Source: an uncultured bacterium
Lineage (GTDB): Bacteria; Verrucomicrobiota; Kiritimatiellia; CAIKKV01; CAIJXV01
NCBI GenBank assembly: GCA_903824675.1
Contig: CAIJXV010000120.1
Span: forward strand, 1 to 54,653
Direction: 5' to 3'
Length of the DNA stretch: 54,653 bases
In this document: in pieces, positions 21,141 through 36,208 of the stretch
Numbering within the stretch: position 1 is the first letter of the stretch
Layout: every line of letters begins with the position of its first letter
The notes under the pieces: generated by a model
What the model was told of the DNA's origin: nothing
The model's database searches: none
Seen by the model: the letters and a program-made list of their open reading frames with translations, nothing else
Made by a program: the position numbers and the translations under genes

Positions 21141-22322
21141 TTATTTCGCAGCCGCCTGATGCAAATAATTCCACGCTATTAATAACAGTAGGCGCGCCGC
21201 CCCGGGCAACCGGTCAAGGCGCACCATTTCATGATCCGCATGGGCAAATTCATTATCAAATCCGGACAATACCGTGGGGACACCCCCCATGGGAATCAAC
21301 CGACTGGTATCGGCAACGGCGGCAATGCCCACAGACTTCACCGGACCGCCCACCAGGGTTTCAATCGCCTGGCGCTGGGCGGAGACAATCAACTCCGCCG
21401 GGTCGAGCGCGAACGATTCACCGGTCAACCGCCAGGAGACCGAAGCCGACACGCCGGCGGGGAGATGTGTTTTTGCAACCACCTCACACAGGCCTTGCTG
21501 GACATCGGCAAAGGTTTTATCGGGATTCCATCGGCGGGTGCCCTGCAAAGTACAGGCCACCGGCATCCGGTTGTAAAAATCGCCATAATGCATCTGCCCG
21601 ATAAAAAGCGATTCGGCCGACAACAAACCCGGGCGGGGCGGGATGGCAGCCAAGCGGCGACCCTCGTCCCGGATGGCCCCGGCAACAGCCAGGGACCCGG
21701 AAAATAAATCGGGTTTCGTCGCAGAGTAATTCAGTTCATGGCAGGCCTCCCCGGCGCGCTGAACCTTGACATTCCAGATCGCCTGCCCTTTTCCTTCCAG
21801 CGCAATCTTACCTTCGGTATCGTGGATCTGCTCGGTCACAATGGCCGCATCGCCCTTGATCCCCCGCTGGATCAACCCGATCAGCGTCGAGGAATCGCCG
21901 ATGGGCGCCTCGTGCAAGCCAAAGGCGGTCACCAGCACGGAGCCGGGAAAATCACAACCCGTCTCCACCAAAACCCGCACGATTTCCAGAATCCCCGCCA
22001 ACCCATTCTTCATGTCCCCCACGCCCCGGGCGGCAATCGTGGTCGCCGTACGAACGGGCGGCGCATGCGGAATATCGATATGGTCGAGATGTCCGGCCAG
22101 TTGCAGGGTCTTCCCCGGACGATTGCCTTGCACGCGCCCGATCACGGACGGGCTATCCGGATTGCTCTCATCCACCTCCACCACGGCGCCGGCGCGGGCC
22201 AGCAGGTCGGCAAAGGCAAACGCCACCTGGCGTTCCCGCCCCGTGGGACTGGGAATGGATACCAACCGCCACAAATCCTCGATGATCCGATCACCCTGAA
22301 TACGATCCAGCGGGACATTCAT
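21141..22322 (-). CDS. M20-family metallohydrolase (ArgE/DapE/YgeY type)
   Basis: A 393-residue di-zinc amidohydrolase or peptidase. Metal ligands are visible in LAGHLDHIDIP, RGVGDMKNGLAGI, the acidic site after TAFGLHEAP, and FAHADHEMVRL near the C-terminus. The dimerisation (lid) domain fills the middle. Family members deacylate N-acyl amino acids or cleave carbamoyl and dipeptide bonds. Placed in a dehydrogenase/aminotransferase operon, it probably releases an amino acid or amine from an acylated substrate. AAAGAGG precedes the ATG, and the gene follows the second MDR gene with a three-base gap. Confidence 0.88.
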   Translation of the reverse strand: MNVPLDRIQGDRIIEDLWRLVSIPSPTGRERQVAFAFADLLARAGAVVEVDESNPDSPSVIGRVQGNRPGKTLQLAGHLDHIDIPHAPPVRTATTIAARGVGDMKNGLAGILEIVRVLVETGCDFPGSVLVTAFGLHEAPIGDSSTLIGLIQRGIKGDAAIVTEQIHDTEGKIALEGKGQAIWNVKVQRAGEACHELNYSATKPDLFSGSLAVAGAIRDEGRRLAAIPPRPGLLSAESLFIGQMHYGDFYNRMPVACTLQGTRRWNPDKTFADVQQGLCEVVAKTHLPAGVSASVSWRLTGESFALDPAELIVSAQRQAIETLVGGPVKSVGIAAVADTSRLIPMGGVPTVLSGFDNEFAHADHEMVRLDRLPGAARLLLLIAWNYLHQAAAK

Positions 22323-22325
22323 GAA

Positions 22326-23372
22326 TCAGCCTCTTTCCGGGGTGAGAACAATTTTAACCGCCTGGCACTTTTCGATCTGCGTGAAGGCATCCAGCCACCG
22401 GCTCAACGGCATCACCGACGTGATGAGCGCGCCGGGGTTCAGCCGACGCTCCGCAAACAGGCCCAGGACCGCTTTCCAATTCGCATGGCGGTGGCCAAAG
22501 GTTCCGGCGAGAGTGGCCGATTTACGGAGCAGATCATCCAGGCTCTGGTTGATCGGTTTCGGACCCCATCCGATTTTGACGATCTGTCCACACCGGCGCA
22601 CACTGGCCAATGCCGTGCCCAAGGCGGCCGCATTGCCCGCGCAATCGGCAACAATGTCAGCGCCCCGCCCGCCAGTCCAGGCCGCCACGGCGGACCCGGC
22701 ATCTTCCCGATCGGCCCAAATCAGCTTATCCGCCCACCCGCAACGGCCGGCGAGGTCCATGCGCGCCGCATCCGAGCTGAGACCGATGAGGGCCGTGTGA
22801 GTGGCGCCCAGGAGCCGCGCCATCTGCAGACAGATGAGTCCGATCGGACCCGGCCCGATAACGACCGCGTGATCGCCCGGCTGAATCGCAATGCGGTCGG
22901 CGAGCGCATGGTGCGCCACGCAAAAGGGCTCGGTGAGCGAGGCTTCCTCAAATGATACATTTTCCGGAATCCGGTGGAGAATGGCTGGCCGGGCAACGAC
23001 ATACCGGGCAAAGGCGCCATCCACGCCATACCCGTAGCCTTTCCGTCCGGGGCAGATCTGGTACTCACCCTGCTGGCACCAGAAACAGGTGCCACACACC
23101 TGAGCCGAAGTCTCACAGGCGACGCGATCGCCCACGGCCCAACCCTCGACGCCGGGTCCCAGAGCGGCCACGGTGCCGCAGAATTCATGCCCTTGAATGA
23201 CCGGCACGGTGACAGGATTGGCCATGCGATGCTGCCACATCTCAATATCCCACCCGCAAATCGCGGCCGCCCGCACTTCGAGCAACACCGTCCCGGGCCC
23301 CGCCACGGGTTCGGGCACTTCGCGTAATTCCACCATTCCGGGCTGTTGTCCGTATTTGACCAACGCGATCAT
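22326..23372 (-). CDS. Zinc-dependent medium-chain dehydrogenase (MDR family), copy 2
   Basis: A 348-residue dehydrogenase with catalytic zinc residues in AICGWDIEMW and QGHEFCGTV, structural zinc loop VCGTCFWCQQGEYQIC and NAD turn VVIGPGPIGLICLQMA. It differs widely from the copy at 19623, so the two are not a recent duplication and probably act on different steps. The start ATGA overlaps the aminotransferase stop, showing translational coupling. Sorbitol- or threonine-dehydrogenase-like chemistry is likely; the substrate is unknown. Confidence 0.9.
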   Translation of the reverse strand: MIALVKYGQQPGMVELREVPEPVAGPGTVLLEVRAAAICGWDIEMWQHRMANPVTVPVIQGHEFCGTVAALGPGVEGWAVGDRVACETSAQVCGTCFWCQQGEYQICPGRKGYGYGVDGAFARYVVARPAILHRIPENVSFEEASLTEPFCVAHHALADRIAIQPGDHAVVIGPGPIGLICLQMARLLGATHTALIGLSSDAARMDLAGRCGWADKLIWADREDAGSAVAAWTGGRGADIVADCAGNAAALGTALASVRRCGQIVKIGWGPKPINQSLDDLLRKSATLAGTFGHRHANWKAVLGLFAERRLNPGALITSVMPLSRWLDAFTQIEKCQAVKIVLTPERG

Positions 23373-24712
23373 GGCCGCACCTCGGCGAGCGCCTCGCGCA
23401 GGCTCTTTTCGATCAGCCCGTAGAGTTCATCGATATCCGCCGGTTCCGCGATCAGCGCCGGAGCCACGGCAAACCAATTGGGATTGATCCGCATGATCAG
23501 CCCATTGGCCAACGCCGTTTTTTTAAGGGCCATCCCGAGGGCGTCAAACGGCTCGTTGGAGGTGAGGTCTTTGACCAACTCCACGCCGAGCAACATGCCC
23601 TTGCCGCGCACTTCGCGAACCACGCCAAACTTCTTCAGACCTTCCAGCTTGTTCGCGAGGAGGGCCCCCAAGGTGCGGGCCTTTTCACAAAGGTTCTTCT
23701 CCAGGATCTCTTCGATGACCGCCAGACCGACGGCCGCCCCCAACGGATTTCCGGCAAACGTGTGGCCATGGGCAAACTGTGATTCAGAATGGGTCGAGCC
23801 GAGAAACGCTCCGGCCATCTCGGCCCGGGCCATCATGGCGCCCAGGGGAATGGCCCCGCTCGATAGTCCTTTGCCGGCGCAGATGATGTCGGGGGTTGTG
23901 CCGAAGGTCTGGGCCGCAAACATCTGCCCCGTGCGGGCGTACCCGGTGATGACCTCGTCGAAGATGAGGGTGACGTTGTGCCGGTCGCAAATCTGGCGGA
24001 GGAGCGTAAAATAGTCCGCGGCGGGAGTGGCAATGCCGCCGGTATTGGAAATCGGCTCGACCAGCAGGCCGGCCACGGTTTCCGGGTCTTCGTTAATGAT
24101 CAGATCCTCAACCATTCGGGCCGCATGCCGGGTGGCGTCCGCGGGCGAAGGGAACATATCCCGATACCAATGAGGGGGAAACGCCTTGATAAATCCAGGC
24201 ATCTGGGGTTCGAACTTGGTCTTCCGTTTGCCGGTCCCGCTGGCGGACATCGCGCCGAAGGTGGCTCCATGGTAGGCGGTATAGAAACTGATGAATTTGT
24301 ATTTTCCGGGATGGCCGGTCTGCCGATGATATTGCCGCGTGAATTTCAGCGCCGACTCGGTGGATTCCGACCCCCCGCTGAACGGCTTGACGTAATCGAG
24401 CGAGCCGGGCGTGATGGATCCGAGTTTTTCAACAAAATCGAGCGCAATATCGGAAATCGCGTGAAGCGGCGGGGTAAACGTCATCTGCTCCATTTGCTTC
24501 CGCATGGCCTCCATGATGCGCGGATGACGATGCCCCAACAACGCCACAAAAACACCTCCGATGGCGTCAAAATAACGACGTCCGTCCGCATCCCAGTAAT
24601 ATAACCCCTCGGCCTTGTTCAGAATAAGCGGAGCCTTGACAAAGTCTTCCATCTGCGTGTAATCGATGAAGGTGAGCTTGAGCAGTCGCTCTTGTCGTGA
24701 GGTCAATTTCAT
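23369..24712 (-). CDS. Class III PLP aminotransferase (omega-transaminase type)
   Basis: A 447-residue fold-type I PLP enzyme. D252 in LIFDEVITGYARTG and the Schiff-base lysine K281 in DIICAGKGLSSG are in the expected places, as are SGGSESTESALK and YHGATFGAMSASG for phosphate binding. Such enzymes move the amino group of omega-amino acids, diamines or beta-amino acids. The start is the ATG at 24712 behind AAGGAG (seven-base spacing); the longer frame to 24805 is not supported. It heads the set with two dehydrogenases, an M20 hydrolase and a cupin, which suggests degradation of an amino-alcohol or acylated amine. Confidence 0.93.
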   Translation of the reverse strand: MKLTSRQERLLKLTFIDYTQMEDFVKAPLILNKAEGLYYWDADGRRYFDAIGGVFVALLGHRHPRIMEAMRKQMEQMTFTPPLHAISDIALDFVEKLGSITPGSLDYVKPFSGGSESTESALKFTRQYHRQTGHPGKYKFISFYTAYHGATFGAMSASGTGKRKTKFEPQMPGFIKAFPPHWYRDMFPSPADATRHAARMVEDLIINEDPETVAGLLVEPISNTGGIATPAADYFTLLRQICDRHNVTLIFDEVITGYARTGQMFAAQTFGTTPDIICAGKGLSSGAIPLGAMMARAEMAGAFLGSTHSESQFAHGHTFAGNPLGAAVGLAVIEEILEKNLCEKARTLGALLANKLEGLKKFGVVREVRGKGMLLGVELVKDLTSNEPFDALGMALKKTALANGLIMRINPNWFAVAPALIAEPADIDELYGLIEKSLREALAEVRP

Positions 24713-24848
24713 ACCAGTCTCCTTGAAAAACAGTCGATCGATCGAATGTCCGACGGACGGGCAAAGGATGTCGAGATTCGGATCGAAAGTCAAGGCCCCC
24801 GACAAAGCCAGAAGAGGTCGTTAGAGAACCGCCGGGCTACGCATCCGT

Positions 24849-26093
24849 TCAAGGAGAATGCGGGCGGGTCGACTCTGGATCATCGGTCAATCGCCAGGCC
24901 AAGGGAACCCATCCCGCCAAACCCGCCAGGATCAAAAGGGGCAGCACCGAAGGGCCCACCCCATAGCCCAGTCGCCCCACCAGGGCCAGGATTCCCCCCA
25001 CCCCGCCCTTCGCCGCGCGGTATCCAAAAGCATCGATCAGTTCTTTTGCCCGATACCGCGCATCATAGGTCAGCGGCACATAAACCAACTCCTTGGCAGC
25101 CCGGAAAAGGGAATAGTCCAGCGCCTTGAAAAGGCCATAGGCCAGGGCGGCCGTCCATAACCCCGGCAGGACCAGCACCAGAACCACGGCCATCCCATGC
25201 AGGACCGGAATTCCCAGGTGAACCGTTCGCACCTTCATCCGCCTCAGCAAAAGCGGCGTGATAACAAACTGCATCACCGCCGCACCGACATTCAGCAGCG
25301 CATAAAACCCGCCCAACCAACTGGTTCGTTGATCCTTCAAGGGGAAGGACCGTTCCACGTAGTAACTGAGTTGCAGATCGACCAGGGTTGAAACGACTTG
25401 AGTGATACCCACCAGGAGCGCCAGATAAAACAAGATCGGTTGCTGACGGAGTAAATGCACGCCCAAATGGCCCTGCCGACCGCCGATTTCACCCGGCGCG
25501 GGCTGGGGTTCACCACCCCAACGATACGCCCAGAGAGTGAAGAGGGCGGTTGGAACCAAGGTCACGGCCGCCAAAATCAATAAATCCTGACTCCCCATGC
25601 GAACCGCCCAATGATGAACAAACCAGCCGCCGGTGATGGCGCCCAGGGACGCGATCCCGCAAATCGGTCCATTCCAACTTCGCCCTTCCCCGCGTCGCAA
25701 GGTGCTGTTGATGAAAGACCATACCTGTTCAACCAGCAAAACAATATACGCCTCCCGGACCACGTAAAGGACTCCGGTAGCCACCCGGCTCCCATGCCGG
25801 ATTGCCCACCAACAGCCCAGCAGGGCCAGGGCCGAAAGAAGGCAGGTGGACAGAATCGCCTTGCGCGCCCCCCACCAGGACAACAGCAATCCGTATCCAT
25901 ATAACCACAACAGGGTTCCCACGGGACCCAAGGCCATGACGAGGCGCAATTTGGCCGCTCCGTAGGCGGAAATATAAAGGGATTGGGCGACACTGCGAAC
26001 CAATTCATAACCGAACAGCAGGAACAAGGCGGCAACCCCAATCGTTAGCGCCGCCTGCCAGGGAGAATGAGAAGATGAAGTCGAATCACGCAT
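24849..26093 (-). CDS. NTT (ATP/ADP translocase)-like MFS membrane carrier
   Basis: A 414-residue polytopic protein with about 11-12 hydrophobic segments. Its most telling part is YSLFRAAKELVYVPLTYDAR followed by RAKELIDAFGYRAAKGG. This matches the conserved helix-and-loop of the NTT/TLC nucleotide-transporter family (KEMAYIPL...GKSGG pattern). It is shorter than chlamydial or plastid NTT carriers (about 500) and may not carry nucleotides. Free-living PVC bacteria often hold such relatives. It lies 21 bp after the GT9 gene in the same direction. Substrate unknown; lipid or cell-envelope precursor transport is conceivable. Confidence 0.75.
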   Translation of the reverse strand: MRDSTSSSHSPWQAALTIGVAALFLLFGYELVRSVAQSLYISAYGAAKLRLVMALGPVGTLLWLYGYGLLLSWWGARKAILSTCLLSALALLGCWWAIRHGSRVATGVLYVVREAYIVLLVEQVWSFINSTLRRGEGRSWNGPICGIASLGAITGGWFVHHWAVRMGSQDLLILAAVTLVPTALFTLWAYRWGGEPQPAPGEIGGRQGHLGVHLLRQQPILFYLALLVGITQVVSTLVDLQLSYYVERSFPLKDQRTSWLGGFYALLNVGAAVMQFVITPLLLRRMKVRTVHLGIPVLHGMAVVLVLVLPGLWTAALAYGLFKALDYSLFRAAKELVYVPLTYDARYRAKELIDAFGYRAAKGGVGGILALVGRLGYGVGPSVLPLLILAGLAGWVPLAWRLTDDPESTRPHSP

Positions 26094-26114: not shown

Positions 26115-27236
26115 TTATCCGTCGGTCGTCACAGTCCCCCAGCAGGGATGCGTGATCAGGGCGCCATAGATCTGGTCCATCTCCGGCCGGAACAAGACCC
26201 GATCCAATGCCCCTCGGGGCGCATAGCGAACCGAACTCTGGTCCTGAAGAATGGCCGCCGTCGGCACATCCAGGGCGACGGCCAAATGCATGGGCCCCGT
26301 ATCGGGAGTGACCACCAGACGGGCCAACCCCAACATCGCGGCAAAATCCCGTAACGGCATGGGGGCCATTACGCATAAGGCATGCGTCGGGAAAGTGGCT
26401 TTGAACTCTTTGGCCATCGCCGCTTCTTCAGGACCGATAAAAACCACCACCCGGGCCTGATCGGCCAGGAGTCGTTGAGTCAATTGGATCCAGAATGTTG
26501 AGGAGCAGCGCTTACTCGCATGGCCCCCCACAAACAAGGCGATAAACGGCCGGACCTCCGGTTTCCCAGCCAAGCCCTCCTGCGCGAGGCGGGTTATGGC
26601 TTTTTCCCGCTCTTCGGGTGTCACCTGGTAATAAGGATGATCCCGGCAGGGAACTCCCAACAGTTGGGCGACGACCATTGGATCGTCATACGAATGCTGC
26701 GCCGCACTCATATCGACCGACAGATTACATAACTCTTTAGCCCACTTCCCCGCCCCGATCCGATAACGGGCCCCCAGGCAAATCATGCAAATCATCCCGG
26801 AAAACGACCCGTTTCCAACTTGGAGCAGCAAATCGTATTTCCGGCGGCGAAGCCGACTCAACAAGCGGATATAGGCCCAGGGTTTTAAAATGAAATCCCG
26901 GGACATGACAAACACCTGATCCAGCGGCAACCCCTTCAGCAGAATCGCCGTCGTGTCGGCACCCAAGTAATCGACTTGGGCCCCTGGAAAGCGATGCTTC
27001 AATACGCCGATCAACGGAAGGCTGATCAAAGTGTTACCTATTCTGTAATTCGGCCGCAACAGCAAAATCCGGTGGATATTTTCCAGATGAGCCGGATCCG
27101 CCGCCCTAGGAGCTTTACAGAAAAACAGGAAGATCCGATAGATCCCCTGCTTAAAGAACGTCTCCAGCCTTTTTCCCAGTCGGCGCATCGCCGCATGCCG
27201 CCGGATCCTCAACAACCAGGGGGGAATCGCCCTCAT
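26115..27236 (-). CDS. Glycosyltransferase family 9 (heptosyltransferase-like)
   Basis: A 373-residue GT-B glycosyltransferase. Family hallmarks are LLRPNYRIGNTLISLPLIGVL near residue 55 and VTPDTGPMHLAVALDVPTAAI near the C-terminus, the nucleotide-sugar site of WaaC/WaaF-like enzymes. An N-terminal amphipathic stretch rich in Arg may touch the membrane. It probably adds a heptose-like sugar to lipopolysaccharide or another surface glycan. ATG 27236 overlaps the previous stop as TAATG, so this start is preferred over the in-frame ATG at 27260. Confidence 0.9.
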   Translation of the reverse strand: MRAIPPWLLRIRRHAAMRRLGKRLETFFKQGIYRIFLFFCKAPRAADPAHLENIHRILLLRPNYRIGNTLISLPLIGVLKHRFPGAQVDYLGADTTAILLKGLPLDQVFVMSRDFILKPWAYIRLLSRLRRRKYDLLLQVGNGSFSGMICMICLGARYRIGAGKWAKELCNLSVDMSAAQHSYDDPMVVAQLLGVPCRDHPYYQVTPEEREKAITRLAQEGLAGKPEVRPFIALFVGGHASKRCSSTFWIQLTQRLLADQARVVVFIGPEEAAMAKEFKATFPTHALCVMAPMPLRDFAAMLGLARLVVTPDTGPMHLAVALDVPTAAILQDQSSVRYAPRGALDRVLFRPEMDQIYGALITHPCWGTVTTDG

Positions 27237-28102
27237 TAGGCCCGTTCCAAACGAGGCCAACTCTTCGTTTCCAGCCAGATCTTCCCGTCAGTCGCCGCCC
27301 AGGCTTTCAATAGAATGGCTGGATTTTGGGCTTCGGGGGTGGGATTGGGAGGGGGCGGCAATTGGCTGAGAAGCGCCCCGGGATCATCGGCCTGAGTGCT
27401 CAGGATGGTGCAGACGTCGGAGAGGAATAACGGCCGCAAGTTCGTCAGGTCCTCTGTAATTCTAACGTCGCCCAAATGGATCACCGAGGGCTCCAGCAGA
27501 AAGGCATGATGAATGGCCTCTTGCCGGGTTGCCACATCGGTCGATATTTCCACCTGGACCACCAGGGAATTATGATGGGTCATGAGAAACGAAAGGGTCG
27601 GCTCGACAATATAAATCACCTGCCGGCAGGTGTTGTTGACCGCGTTCAACAAGGCATACACCGTCTGACACAGAACGCTCTGGCTTGTGCCATAGACCAG
27701 CACCGCCCGGTATTTCCGCTGCCCGATCGCCTCCGCAATCTCCAGCGCCCGCTCCGGCTCGGCACAAATCGAAGCGATGTCCGGCACTTCAAAGGGAATG
27801 CGAACGATTCGTAGCACCCGGCTGCCCCGTTGGGTAAAATGACAGACGCGAAGCCGGCCGACCCCGCGAACGCCCACGCAAAGAATACCCGCCTGGGGAA
27901 GATGATCCTGTTTCTTGCCGGAACTGCGCATGACGACCCCGCCGAGGGTTTCCTCGACATCAGCCGCCGAAAAAACCTTGCCGCTCACGACAGAGAACGC
28001 GCCTTGGCGCCGACTTAGCGGCGGCGCGTTGGGCGCGACAATCAGTTCCGACAATTGAGAGTCTTTGGCCAGTATGTCTAGAATCTCAGACCAGATATTC
28101 AT
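27236..28102 (-). CDS. PilT/GspE-like pseudo-ATPase lacking Walker A
   Basis: A 288-residue protein whose layout follows PilT: an N-terminal PAS-like half (ILAKDSQLSELIVAPNAPPL, GRLRVCHFTQRGSRVLRIVR) and a C-terminal RecA-like half. The expected GPTGSGKST P-loop reads GTSQSVLCQ (138-146), the Asp box reads YIVEPTLSF (164-172), Walker B reads PSVIHLGDVR (205-214) and the His box reads LSTQADDPGA. The fold is kept but the nucleotide-binding lysine and serine are gone, so ATPase activity is very unlikely. A proline-rich tail follows from about 249. It heads an operon with GT9 and the carrier. ATG 28102 has GGAG eight bases upstream. Confidence 0.75.
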   Translation of the reverse strand: MNIWSEILDILAKDSQLSELIVAPNAPPLSRRQGAFSVVSGKVFSAADVEETLGGVVMRSSGKKQDHLPQAGILCVGVRGVGRLRVCHFTQRGSRVLRIVRIPFEVPDIASICAEPERALEIAEAIGQRKYRAVLVYGTSQSVLCQTVYALLNAVNNTCRQVIYIVEPTLSFLMTHHNSLVVQVEISTDVATRQEAIHHAFLLEPSVIHLGDVRITEDLTNLRPLFLSDVCTILSTQADDPGALLSQLPPPPNPTPEAQNPAILLKAWAATDGKIWLETKSWPRLERA

Positions 28103-28212: not shown

Positions 28213-28842
28213 ATGACTGAATTTACCTTCCGCGAGATGTTCCTCCAAGGCTGGCCGATCTTGAGCATCCTGTTGATCGCCTCCATCCTGTCGATCACGG
28301 TTATTGTTGACCGTTTTCTTGCCTTTCGAAGTGCCCACCTGAATGCGGAACGATTTGTCGGAAAAATCCTGAATATTGTTGAAACCCAAGGGGTCAATGC
28401 CGCCCTGACTTATTGCGGGCAATTCCCCCAACCGGTTTCCATGGTGGTCCAGTCCGTTCTCCGGGAGTCGGGAAACCGCGAAGCAAAAGAACGTACCGCC
28501 CAGAACACGCTGCAAGCCCAAATTCTGGAACTGGAGAAAAACATCCCCATCCTGGGCACCACGGGAAGTATCGCCCCCTTTATCGGCCTGTTCGGCACCG
28601 TCAGCGGCATTATCAAGGCTTTCATTGACATGGCCACCCATGCCGGCGGCGGCGTTGAAGTGGTTGCGGCCGGCATTGCCGAAGCCTTGATCACCACGGC
28701 GGTGGGCCTCTCGGTCGCCATCCCCGCCGTGATCGGCTACAATTACTGCGTAAGCCGGATCCGACGGATGTCCGGAGAAATCGATGTCGCCGTGTTTCGG
28801 TTGATTGAATCGTCGAATTTACCCGGGGGACAGAACCGATGA
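28213..28842 (+). CDS. exbB: ExbB/TolQ/MotA-family proton channel protein
   Basis: A 209-residue inner-membrane protein with three membrane helices: about 14-34, and a pair around 112-132 and 152-172. TGSIAPFIGLFGTVSGI and EALITTAVGLSVAIPAV are the signature of the proton-conducting pair. Between TM1 and TM2 lies the large cytoplasmic helical region. With ExbD it turns the proton gradient into mechanical work for outer-membrane processes. GAGGA precedes the ATG by nine bases, and the stop overlaps the exbD start (ATGA). ExbB and TolQ cannot be told apart from sequence alone; no tonB or tolA lies nearby. Confidence 0.9.
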   Translation: MTEFTFREMFLQGWPILSILLIASILSITVIVDRFLAFRSAHLNAERFVGKILNIVETQGVNAALTYCGQFPQPVSMVVQSVLRESGNREAKERTAQNTLQAQILELEKNIPILGTTGSIAPFIGLFGTVSGIIKAFIDMATHAGGGVEVVAAGIAEALITTAVGLSVAIPAVIGYNYCVSRIRRMSGEIDVAVFRLIESSNLPGGQNR

Positions 28843-29276
28843 AAGTCAACCCGGGCGGAAGCGACCGATATCAGGTTATGGCCGAGATCAACATGGTCCC
28901 GTTGATCGACGTGGCCCTGGTGTTGCTGATCATCTTCATGGTCATGACGCCCATTCTGGTGGCTTCCCAGATCAAGCTCAACCCGCCCGGCGCGGCCTCG
29001 GGCACTCAGTCGTCCGACAAAACCGTTGAAATCCAAATTGACAAGGGCGGCCTCATTTATTTTCAAAGCCTGATTATCCCGGTCGAGCGCTTGAAGGAGA
29101 CCATCAGCGGAGCAACCGCAGGCTCCGGAGAGAGCCGGGGGGCTTTATTGATCACGGCCGACAAGGACGTGCCGTTTGACAAGGTCGTCCTGGTAATGGA
29201 TACGGCCCGGCAGATCGGCGTCCAGAAAATGAGCATCGGGGTCAAACGAATCCAGGCTTCGTCTTCGCGGCGGTAA
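28839..29276 (+). CDS. exbD: ExbD/TolR-family proton channel protein
   Basis: A 145-residue protein with a short cytoplasmic N-terminus, one membrane helix (about 23-42, starting PLIDVALVLLIIFMVMTP) and a periplasmic domain of about 100 residues. D24 at the head of the helix is the conserved proton-accepting Asp of ExbD/TolR. It overlaps exbB by four bases. The Gfo/Idh gene begins 28 bp further on the same strand and may be co-transcribed. Confidence 0.9.
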   Translation: MKVNPGGSDRYQVMAEINMVPLIDVALVLLIIFMVMTPILVASQIKLNPPGAASGTQSSDKTVEIQIDKGGLIYFQSLIIPVERLKETISGATAGSGESRGALLITADKDVPFDKVVLVMDTARQIGVQKMSIGVKRIQASSSRR

Positions 29277-33608: not shown

Positions 33609-34688
33609 CTACATTATCTTGCACCGATACACCGATTCGGTCAACCGGACCATCGCCTCGGCTTCGGCACGGGACTTGCACCACATGCAGTAGAGGCAAC
33701 CTTCGGGCTTCAAGGCCCGCATCAGCTTTTCAGCTTCCGCCAGATTCCCGGGATTAAGCCACAAGCCCTTGCCCAGCCCCTGGATTTGAGTGAGCAATTC
33801 CGGCCAATCACAGATCGGCGGCCGCCCAGCGCCTGGCACCCATTGAATGGCTTCCAAGTGGGGACTGGCGCAAATCGATGGCACATGCGGAATCGCCCCG
33901 GGCCCATCCAGATGGTAAATCGCCCGTTCGACGGACCCCGCTTCCAACTCGACATAATCTTTGAAAAATTCATCGAACATCGCCGGCCCCACCATGCAGC
34001 AGAAATCATTCTGGATAACCGCATACCGACCCCGTCCCACGACTGGAATCCAACTGGTGTTATATCCGCCGGACTGCGGGTGAAGAATGTCAAAATGCGC
34101 CTGGGCCACTTGGAGGAAAACCTCGTGGCATTCCTTCAGTCGTTTGTGGATCTCATCCGGTTGATCGATCAGATCCATTAAGAGCCGTTCGGGACCCCGC
34201 AAAGCCGCCAGACCATCGGCATTCGAATGCAAATCTCCGGAACCCACCAGCCATTTGCCCTTACCCCGTTCGGCGCAGAGCTTCAAATAGCGTTCCATCG
34301 CCTGCCAAATCGGTCCTTCCCGATGAAACCGAAGGGGCGGCTCCTTCGCCCAGTCATCCACCCGGAAATGCGCCCAACTGGTGGTTTCGGCAAACTCCAA
34401 CTGGCTCCCCATGAACGCCGCTAAAACGTCCGGGCCGAGATTGCACATCCCGTAAGCCGGAAAGCCTTCGCAGAAGAAACCGGTGGCTTCCAGATTACGC
34501 TCAAAAGCCTCAATCGTCCGTTCAAATCCGAACCATTTTTCGTAAAGGGATTTTGGGGGCGGCGGCACGTTCTTGGCTTCACCGTCCGGGAAACATAAAT
34601 AGAGCGCGGGACGATCATGGTTCTGCCGGTCCAACGTCAATTCATATCGCTCAACAATTTTGTCAAAATCCACGTCACGCAAAAACAT
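33609..34688 (-). CDS. Uroporphyrinogen-decarboxylase-like (URO-D/MtaA superfamily) protein
   Basis: A 359-residue TIM-barrel protein of the URO-D superfamily. Typical stretches include GFERTIEAFERNLEATG, FDEFFKDYVELEAGS, AIYHLDGPGAIPHVPSI and IQWVPGAGRPP. The N-terminal arginine motif of true heme-pathway HemE is not present, so it is more likely a corrinoid-dependent methyltransferase-like or catabolic paralogue, as is frequent in Lentisphaerae and Kiritimatiellae. ATG 34688 has AAGGAGG upstream; the frame to 34763 is a longer alternative. It stands alone, convergent with the orphan gene. Confidence 0.82.
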   Translation of the reverse strand: MFLRDVDFDKIVERYELTLDRQNHDRPALYLCFPDGEAKNVPPPPKSLYEKWFGFERTIEAFERNLEATGFFCEGFPAYGMCNLGPDVLAAFMGSQLEFAETTSWAHFRVDDWAKEPPLRFHREGPIWQAMERYLKLCAERGKGKWLVGSGDLHSNADGLAALRGPERLLMDLIDQPDEIHKRLKECHEVFLQVAQAHFDILHPQSGGYNTSWIPVVGRGRYAVIQNDFCCMVGPAMFDEFFKDYVELEAGSVERAIYHLDGPGAIPHVPSICASPHLEAIQWVPGAGRPPICDWPELLTQIQGLGKGLWLNPGNLAEAEKLMRALKPEGCLYCMWCKSRAEAEAMVRLTESVYRCKIM

Positions 34689-34817
34689 AGGGCCTCCTTC
34701 AGTTACAAAACAGCCTATTTCTATCGTATTTACGGATAACAGACACGTTAAATCGTTTGTCAATATTCCCGGGGAAAGAGCCGGTCGCGCGGGTTGGCTG
34801 TCCCTCTATTTTGACTG

Positions 34818-34846
34818 TTGACCCCCACCCCTGCTTAGGCTATTTT
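34818..34846 (+). promoter_or_regulatory. Putative sigma-70-type promoter of the efflux operon
   Basis: TTGACC at 34818-34823 and TATTTT at 34841-34846 are separated by 17 bases (5/6 and 4/6 matches). The expected start near 34853 leaves a leader of about 36 bases before the ATG at 34889. It lies in the 200-bp gap shared with the divergent URO-D-like gene. Confidence 0.5.
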
Positions 34847-34888
34847 TTCAGCGTTCTCCGCAACATAAAATAGCGGTACTCCATCTTT

Positions 34889-36208
34889 ATGAAACACCTC
34901 TTCGCCATCGCAGTTATCGTCGGCCTCGCCGGAATGGCGACCCGGGGCGACGCCGTTGAATCCCCCCTCTTGTCGCTCGACGATTGCCTGCGCCTCGGCC
35001 TGGAAAATTCAATCCCCCTGGCCAATGCGCGGCGAGACATCGCGATTGCCGAAAGCGGCATCCGCCAGACCCGTGCTCAGGCGCTGCCGCATCTCGATCT
35101 CAATTCCTCATATACCCGCCTCGATGAGGTTTCCACTTTCGATATCGGTTCGGAAACCATCCCCACGGGACAGCGCGACAATTACTCCGCCAACACGGAA
35201 CTGACCCAACTGCTCTATAATGGGGGACAGATCAATGCCGCCTTGCGCGCGTCGCGAGATATCCGAAATTTGACCGCGTGGCAAAAAGCCACCGTAGAGG
35301 CAGACCTGCGGTTGCAGATTTCCGTAGGCTTCTACGATCTCCTTTTCGCCCAGTCCGCCGTCGCCGTGGCCGAAGAAAATGTGGTCCAACTCCGCGCCTT
35401 GCTCAACCAGGCCGAAACCCGTTGGCGCATGCAGGTCGCCTCCGAATTCGACGTCCTCACCGCCCGGGTGAGACTGGCCAACGCCATCCCGCCTTTGATC
35501 GCAACCAGCAACCGTTTGCAACTGGCCCGAATTTCTCTGGCCAATCTGGTTTTTCCGGATGCACCGGACTTCCAGATTGCCGGCGAATTGCGCGCCCCGT
35601 CAGAGCCGCGAACCCTTTCTGAATTTCTGACCCTCGGCGCCACCCGTCGCCCGGAATTGCAACAAATGCGCGTTCAGGTTCATCTCCGGGAGGAAGCGCT
35701 CCGGGCCGAGCGCGGCTCGCTCTACCCGGAATTCAAGGCTTTTGCCAACTATAACGGAAACAATCCGCCCCAATTTTCAGCCGCATCGGCAGAATGGGAC
35801 TGGCATTGGTCCGCCGGTGTCCGCGCCAGTTGGCCGATTTTCGATGGCGGCTTGAGCCGCGCCCGGATTCTCGAAAAATCGCTCGAGTTGGAAAAAACGC
35901 GGAGTTCCTTGGAAGATTTCCAACGCTCCATCGCTCTCGAAATACGCCAGGCTTTCCTCGATCTTGTCCGGGCCCGGGAGACGATTACCGCTGAGCAGGA
36001 AACCCAGGCGCTGGCGGATCGCGCTCTGGCCATCGCCGGCAACCGGTATGCCGAGGGTCTGGCCACCGTCCTCGAGGTGTCCGAGAGTAACCTCGCGCGT
36101 AATCAGGCCCGATTGACCCTGTTGAATGCCCAGCGTGAAGAATGTAACGCCCTCGCTCGCCTCCGACATGCGGCGGGCCTATCCGTCTCCCCCCCGGAGG
36201 ACTCCTGA
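34889..36208 (+). CDS. TolC-family outer-membrane efflux protein
   Basis: A 439-residue outer-membrane channel. A signal peptide (about 1-22, AIAVIVGLAGMATRGDA) precedes two OEP repeats. SLDDCLRLGLENSIPLANARRD opens the first, and long coiled-coil helices follow (NVVQLRALLNQAETRW; EKTRSSLEDFQRSIALEIRQ). It forms the exit duct for the RND pump encoded next. Its stop overlaps the membrane-fusion gene start. No lipobox cysteine is seen at the cleavage site. Confidence 0.92.
   Translation: MKHLFAIAVIVGLAGMATRGDAVESPLLSLDDCLRLGLENSIPLANARRDIAIAESGIRQTRAQALPHLDLNSSYTRLDEVSTFDIGSETIPTGQRDNYSANTELTQLLYNGGQINAALRASRDIRNLTAWQKATVEADLRLQISVGFYDLLFAQSAVAVAEENVVQLRALLNQAETRWRMQVASEFDVLTARVRLANAIPPLIATSNRLQLARISLANLVFPDAPDFQIAGELRAPSEPRTLSEFLTLGATRRPELQQMRVQVHLREEALRAERGSLYPEFKAFANYNGNNPPQFSAASAEWDWHWSAGVRASWPIFDGGLSRARILEKSLELEKTRSSLEDFQRSIALEIRQAFLDLVRARETITAEQETQALADRALAIAGNRYAEGLATVLEVSESNLARNQARLTLLNAQREECNALARLRHAAGLSVSPPEDS

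Follow-up and report, generated by a model that had tools for sequence, protein, structure and literature searches.

The catalytic boxes are the usual yardstick for pilus motor ATPases. A gene at 27236-28102 of the window (the whole stretch of 54,653 nucleotides analysed here) encodes a PilT-like protein in which these boxes are altered, and it raises the question of what such a protein may do. A first-pass annotation had read it as a non-catalytic PilT that may act as a regulatory or scaffold protein in surface-glycan export. The gene and its sites, the latter with coordinates calculated from residue numbers, are as follows:

27236..28102, reverse strand: PilT-like pseudo-ATPase gene, 288 aa plus TAA (profile, sequence and structure matches)
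27824..27859, reverse strand: kept N-terminal-domain motif GRLRVCHFTQRG, residues 82-93, with R83 = PilT R81 and R85 = PilT R83 (alignment)
27665..27691, reverse strand: lost Walker A, residues 138-146, GTSQSVLCQ, with Leu144 at the K position (alignment to intact PilT)
27587..27604, reverse strand: altered Asp box, residues 167-172, EPTLSF, with the E160-equivalent kept (E167) and Ser171 for the Mg-contacting E164-equivalent (alignment; roles from PMC6858323)
27458..27472, reverse strand: altered Walker B, residues 211-215, GDVRI instead of GEMRD (alignment)
27389..27421, reverse strand: altered His box, residues 228-238, SDVCTILSTQA instead of TGHLVFATLHT (alignment)

The frame is intact over 288 codons, from an ATG at 28102 with a GGAG ribosome site ahead of it to a TAA at 27238-27236, exactly at the coordinates first given. 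The PilT family profile (TIGR01420 pilT_fam, NCBIfam) matches the window protein with E = 4.1e-18 and 65.7 bits against a curated cut-off of 319.1, while no Pfam match to T2SSE was found in this protein. In a sequence search among solved structures the top matches are PilT proteins (Aquifex PilT 2ewv, E = 3.1e-16, residues 8-219), and the PilT homology is not due to chance. An AlphaFold model built from six sequences (the window protein and related loci; mean pLDDT 85.4) has an N-terminal domain plus a RecA-like fold of the PilT/VirB11 type, and its best structural matches are PilU (Z = 24.1, 269 residues) and PilT (Z = 23.3), which cover model residues 3-288. The fold is hence that of an ATPase family, and a non-ATPase fold is ruled out by these matches. 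Within the PilU/PilT structures the matched region extends only to about PilT residue 298, indicating that the C-terminal module is missing from the window protein. In PilT this module holds AIRNLIRE, the motif needed for retraction.

A search of 58 near relatives and then of 346 genomes of the same class yielded 18 further members, giving 19 with the window copy. These relatives show 26-38% identity, and a clear gap separates family members (at least 229 bits) from ordinary PilT (at most 126 bits). No member was found outside the class in the phylum sample; a pattern scan of genome contigs gave no relatives with the window protein and five, all already known, with the family alignment. A tree rooted on PilB and calculated after masking the active-site columns places all 19 members on a single branch within PilT/PilU (support 100/100), and the pseudo-ATPase family thus has one origin inside this group. 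The AIRNLIRE-like motif is absent in every member whose C-terminus is reached in the alignment, while the window genome's own PilT carries it as AIQSLIRE. Since the missing module includes the retraction motif, the protein may also no longer touch the pilus base.

Alignment bears out the changes that had been noticed in the Walker A, Asp and His boxes of the window protein; Walker B is altered too, and the equivalents of E164, E204, H222 and H230 are all missing from this copy. We compared the 19 members with 27 intact PilT/PilU proteins from the same class. The Walker A lysine (GxxGxGK[ST]) is found in none of the members and in all 27 controls. The Mg-contacting Asp-box E164 is likewise replaced in 19/19 (Ser, Thr or Ala instead), the Walker B E204 is kept in only one of 18, and in the His box H222, the first His, is present in 0/18 and H230 in 1/18. 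Other positions have been retained: R81, Q176 and E178 in 19/19, I163 as Leu or Ile in 19/19, E160 in 18/19, and R83 as either R or K (the numbering of Q176, E178 and E160-E164 being a manual count along the alignment). In Geobacter metallireducens PilT (PMC6858323), R81, I163 and E178 make contacts from one packing unit to another. Mg or ATP is touched by E164 and H230, and E204 serves as catalytic base. As R81, I163 and E178 are kept and K, E164 and H222 are lost, the ring-contact face tends to stay while the chemistry goes.

It seems quite improbable that a nucleotide or another ligand is still bound in a remodelled pocket. The first P-loop glycine (18/19) and E160 are compatible with this idea, but no member retains the lysine, E164 or the first His of the His box, and very few have the P-loop Gly, E204 or H230. 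Moreover, the helix in the model begins at residue 141, three residues ahead of the lysine position, so that the stretch expected to form the P-loop has just three residues in coil.

Orthologues with an intact P-loop would have pointed to a recent broken copy. The P-loop is missing in 19/19 members, so the loss is common to the family, and closer pairs of members have dN/dS of 0.065-0.30, indicating purifying selection. The two results together rule out a recent broken copy, and judged from these sequences the loss of the ATP site is old and common to the family. A related possibility, that the window copy is decaying whereas the family is functional elsewhere, we regard as improbable. Its branch is among the longest in the tree, it has additional His-box losses, and the receiver-domain partner described below is absent from its genome (96% complete). 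However, its frame is uninterrupted and has a ribosome site, its length is the same as that of the relatives, and it retains TQRGS, Q183 and E185.

The genes next to other members provide clues to function. The following recur:

L053:9709-11709, L096:3652-5652, L051, L100:8020-8952 and L103:4-1518: REC-GGDEF-REC-REC protein, GGDEF signature lost
L096:828-1586, L097:1210-1938 and L103:2577-3326: proteins resembling outer-membrane barrels, homologous to one another and encoded upstream of pseudo-PilT in three lineages

The REC-GGDEF-REC-REC protein is encoded by the next gene after pseudo-PilT in five lineages (G029, G042, G331, G328 and G332), and the two genes overlap as ATGA in two of these loci. 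Its GGDEF signature is lost in 10/10 aligned partners (for instance GLYEF, SPAQF and GVSEF), and only REC and GGDEF domains, with no EAL domain, were found in it. The partner is present in 12/19 carriers versus 18/346 class genomes (hypergeometric 1.6e-13 by genome and 3e-4 by family, figures inflated by relatedness). In seven other genomes it lies in trans to the pseudo-PilT gene, away from recognisable pilus genes. No neighbour is conserved across all members, and 12/19 are without a recognised pilus or receiver-protein neighbour.

These neighbours bear on the main rival explanation, namely that the protein is a PilT-shaped scaffold which left the pilus and works in signalling, in complex with the receiver/degenerate-GGDEF protein and in some lineages also the outer-membrane barrel, acting on a non-pilus target. 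Six lineages with signalling, barrel or biotin-ligase genes rather than pilus genes as neighbours, and the position of the partner in trans, would agree with this. Nevertheless we consider it unlikely, because the ring-contact residues are kept and intact PilT (above the curated cut-off) occurs in 17/19 carrier genomes, the remaining two being 75-76% complete. In addition, the pseudo-PilT gene of one genus (G010 and G015) lies upstream of Tad pilus genes on the same strand. The full Tad set is seen in G010 only (Flp-like, A24 peptidase, TadE/G, CpaB, secretin, FHA-ATPase and two T2SSF), as the G015 contig ends after the first Tad gene. The ATPase of the G010 cluster (contig C38; L057, L131) has its FHA domain at the N-terminus. 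The window genome has three intact PilT (C17, at 34163-35185, C83 and C115) plus many PilB/GspE genes. One of these paralogues (G000:C83:45911-46957; L003) has the Walker A sequence GPTNSGKT, with Asn for the fourth-position Gly, and its K and other boxes are intact.

We favour, with moderate confidence, the reading that these proteins are pseudo-ATPases of single origin from a PilT/PilU retraction ATPase, which regulate or scaffold pilus motors. The family shares with PilU/PilT (TIGR01420) the fold over almost the whole model, the N-terminal motif, the subunit-contact residues and a single-branch ancestry, whereas it differs in lacking Walker A, the Mg-contacting Asp-box Glu, the His box and, in all but 1/18, the Walker B Glu, in ending near PilT residue 298, and in the low profile score of the window protein (65.7 bits against 319.1). 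Pseudo-PilT would still form or join a PilT-type ring, or dock on a pilus motor, and would be unable to hydrolyse ATP. Ring formation is suggested by the kept contact residues, the models being of single chains only. Placed in the ring or on the motor without ATP hydrolysis, the protein could hence be a brake on active PilT/PilB-type motors, or an adaptor or structural partner of them. Points against this reading are that no neighbour is common to all members, that the retraction motif went with the C-terminal module, and that the window copy has a long branch and no partner gene.

A PilT lacking ATPase activity can be a required partner: when the Walker motifs of Vibrio cholerae PilT are inactivated (K136A/E204A), PilU is still able to retract pili, but it is not when PilT is deleted (PMC6821130). 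That protein was engineered and has a full C-terminal domain, whereas in pseudo-PilT the dead state is natural, ancient and fixed. Input to pseudo-PilT may, in roughly half of the lineages, come from the multi-receiver degenerate-GGDEF protein through a putative link comparable to that of FimX with PilB. FimX (REC-PAS-degenerate GGDEF-EAL) likewise combines receiver and degenerate GGDEF domains, and it binds PilB, a pilus motor ATPase on which it acts (PMC5595344, PMC11656802). The putative partner described here differs in lacking the c-di-GMP-binding EAL and in standing beside a PilT-type pseudo-ATPase. A more specific proposal is tentative and rather doubtful: that a natural, ancient, non-hydrolysing PilT ring is switched by the receiver/degenerate-GGDEF partner and regulates motors by occupying or capping them. 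If true, a non-hydrolysing ring and a degenerate-GGDEF partner would make a working switch from two dead enzymes.

We found no description of a natural PilT-family pseudo-ATPase in the open-access literature searched, where the ATP-dead PilTs found were laboratory-made only. A naturally fixed ATP-dead branch would make testable a structural role of PilT apart from hydrolysis, already hinted at by PilT/PilU genetics. It would also be a warning that homology-based annotation can label such genes as motors.

The surface-glycan role proposed for the window protein depends on its immediate neighbours:

26115..27236, reverse strand: GT9 glycosyltransferase, TAATG overlap with the PilT-like gene, lineage-specific neighbour (domain match, sequence)
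24849..26093, reverse strand: TLC/MFS-like transporter, weak match, third gene of the run (domain match)
28213..29276, forward strand: exbB/exbD, TolQ/TolR type, divergent, not conserved next to other members (profile matches)

The overlap is real, the TAA of the PilT-like gene being joined to the GT9 ATG as TAATG, and a third gene follows where a carrier had been named, although this gene matches TLC/MFS families only weakly. A protein that is coupled to GT9 and regulates or scaffolds the synthesis or export of surface glycans could fit this arrangement, and G008 also has an O-antigen ligase gene a few genes downstream of pseudo-PilT, homologous to one in G004. However, the 213 kb flanking the other 18 members (stretches of unequal length, some on short contigs) contain no homologues of the window GT9, the TLC/MFS-like gene or ExbB/ExbD, which rules out such coupling as a family trait. 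The non-catalytic regulator or scaffold of the first-pass annotation accordingly agrees with the PilU/PilT fold and the 19/19 P-loop loss, while its placement in surface-glycan export is not supported, the linkage being missing around the other members. A glycan role thus appears very improbable; it is not supported by the sequences compared and reflects one lineage-specific gene order, and co-transcription with GT9 is probably incidental. Behind the GT9/transporter pair, on the same strand at 21141-24805 (reverse), the run continues with class III aminotransferase, alcohol-dehydrogenase-like and M20-type peptidase-like genes, which speaks against a glycan role and suggests a metabolic run.
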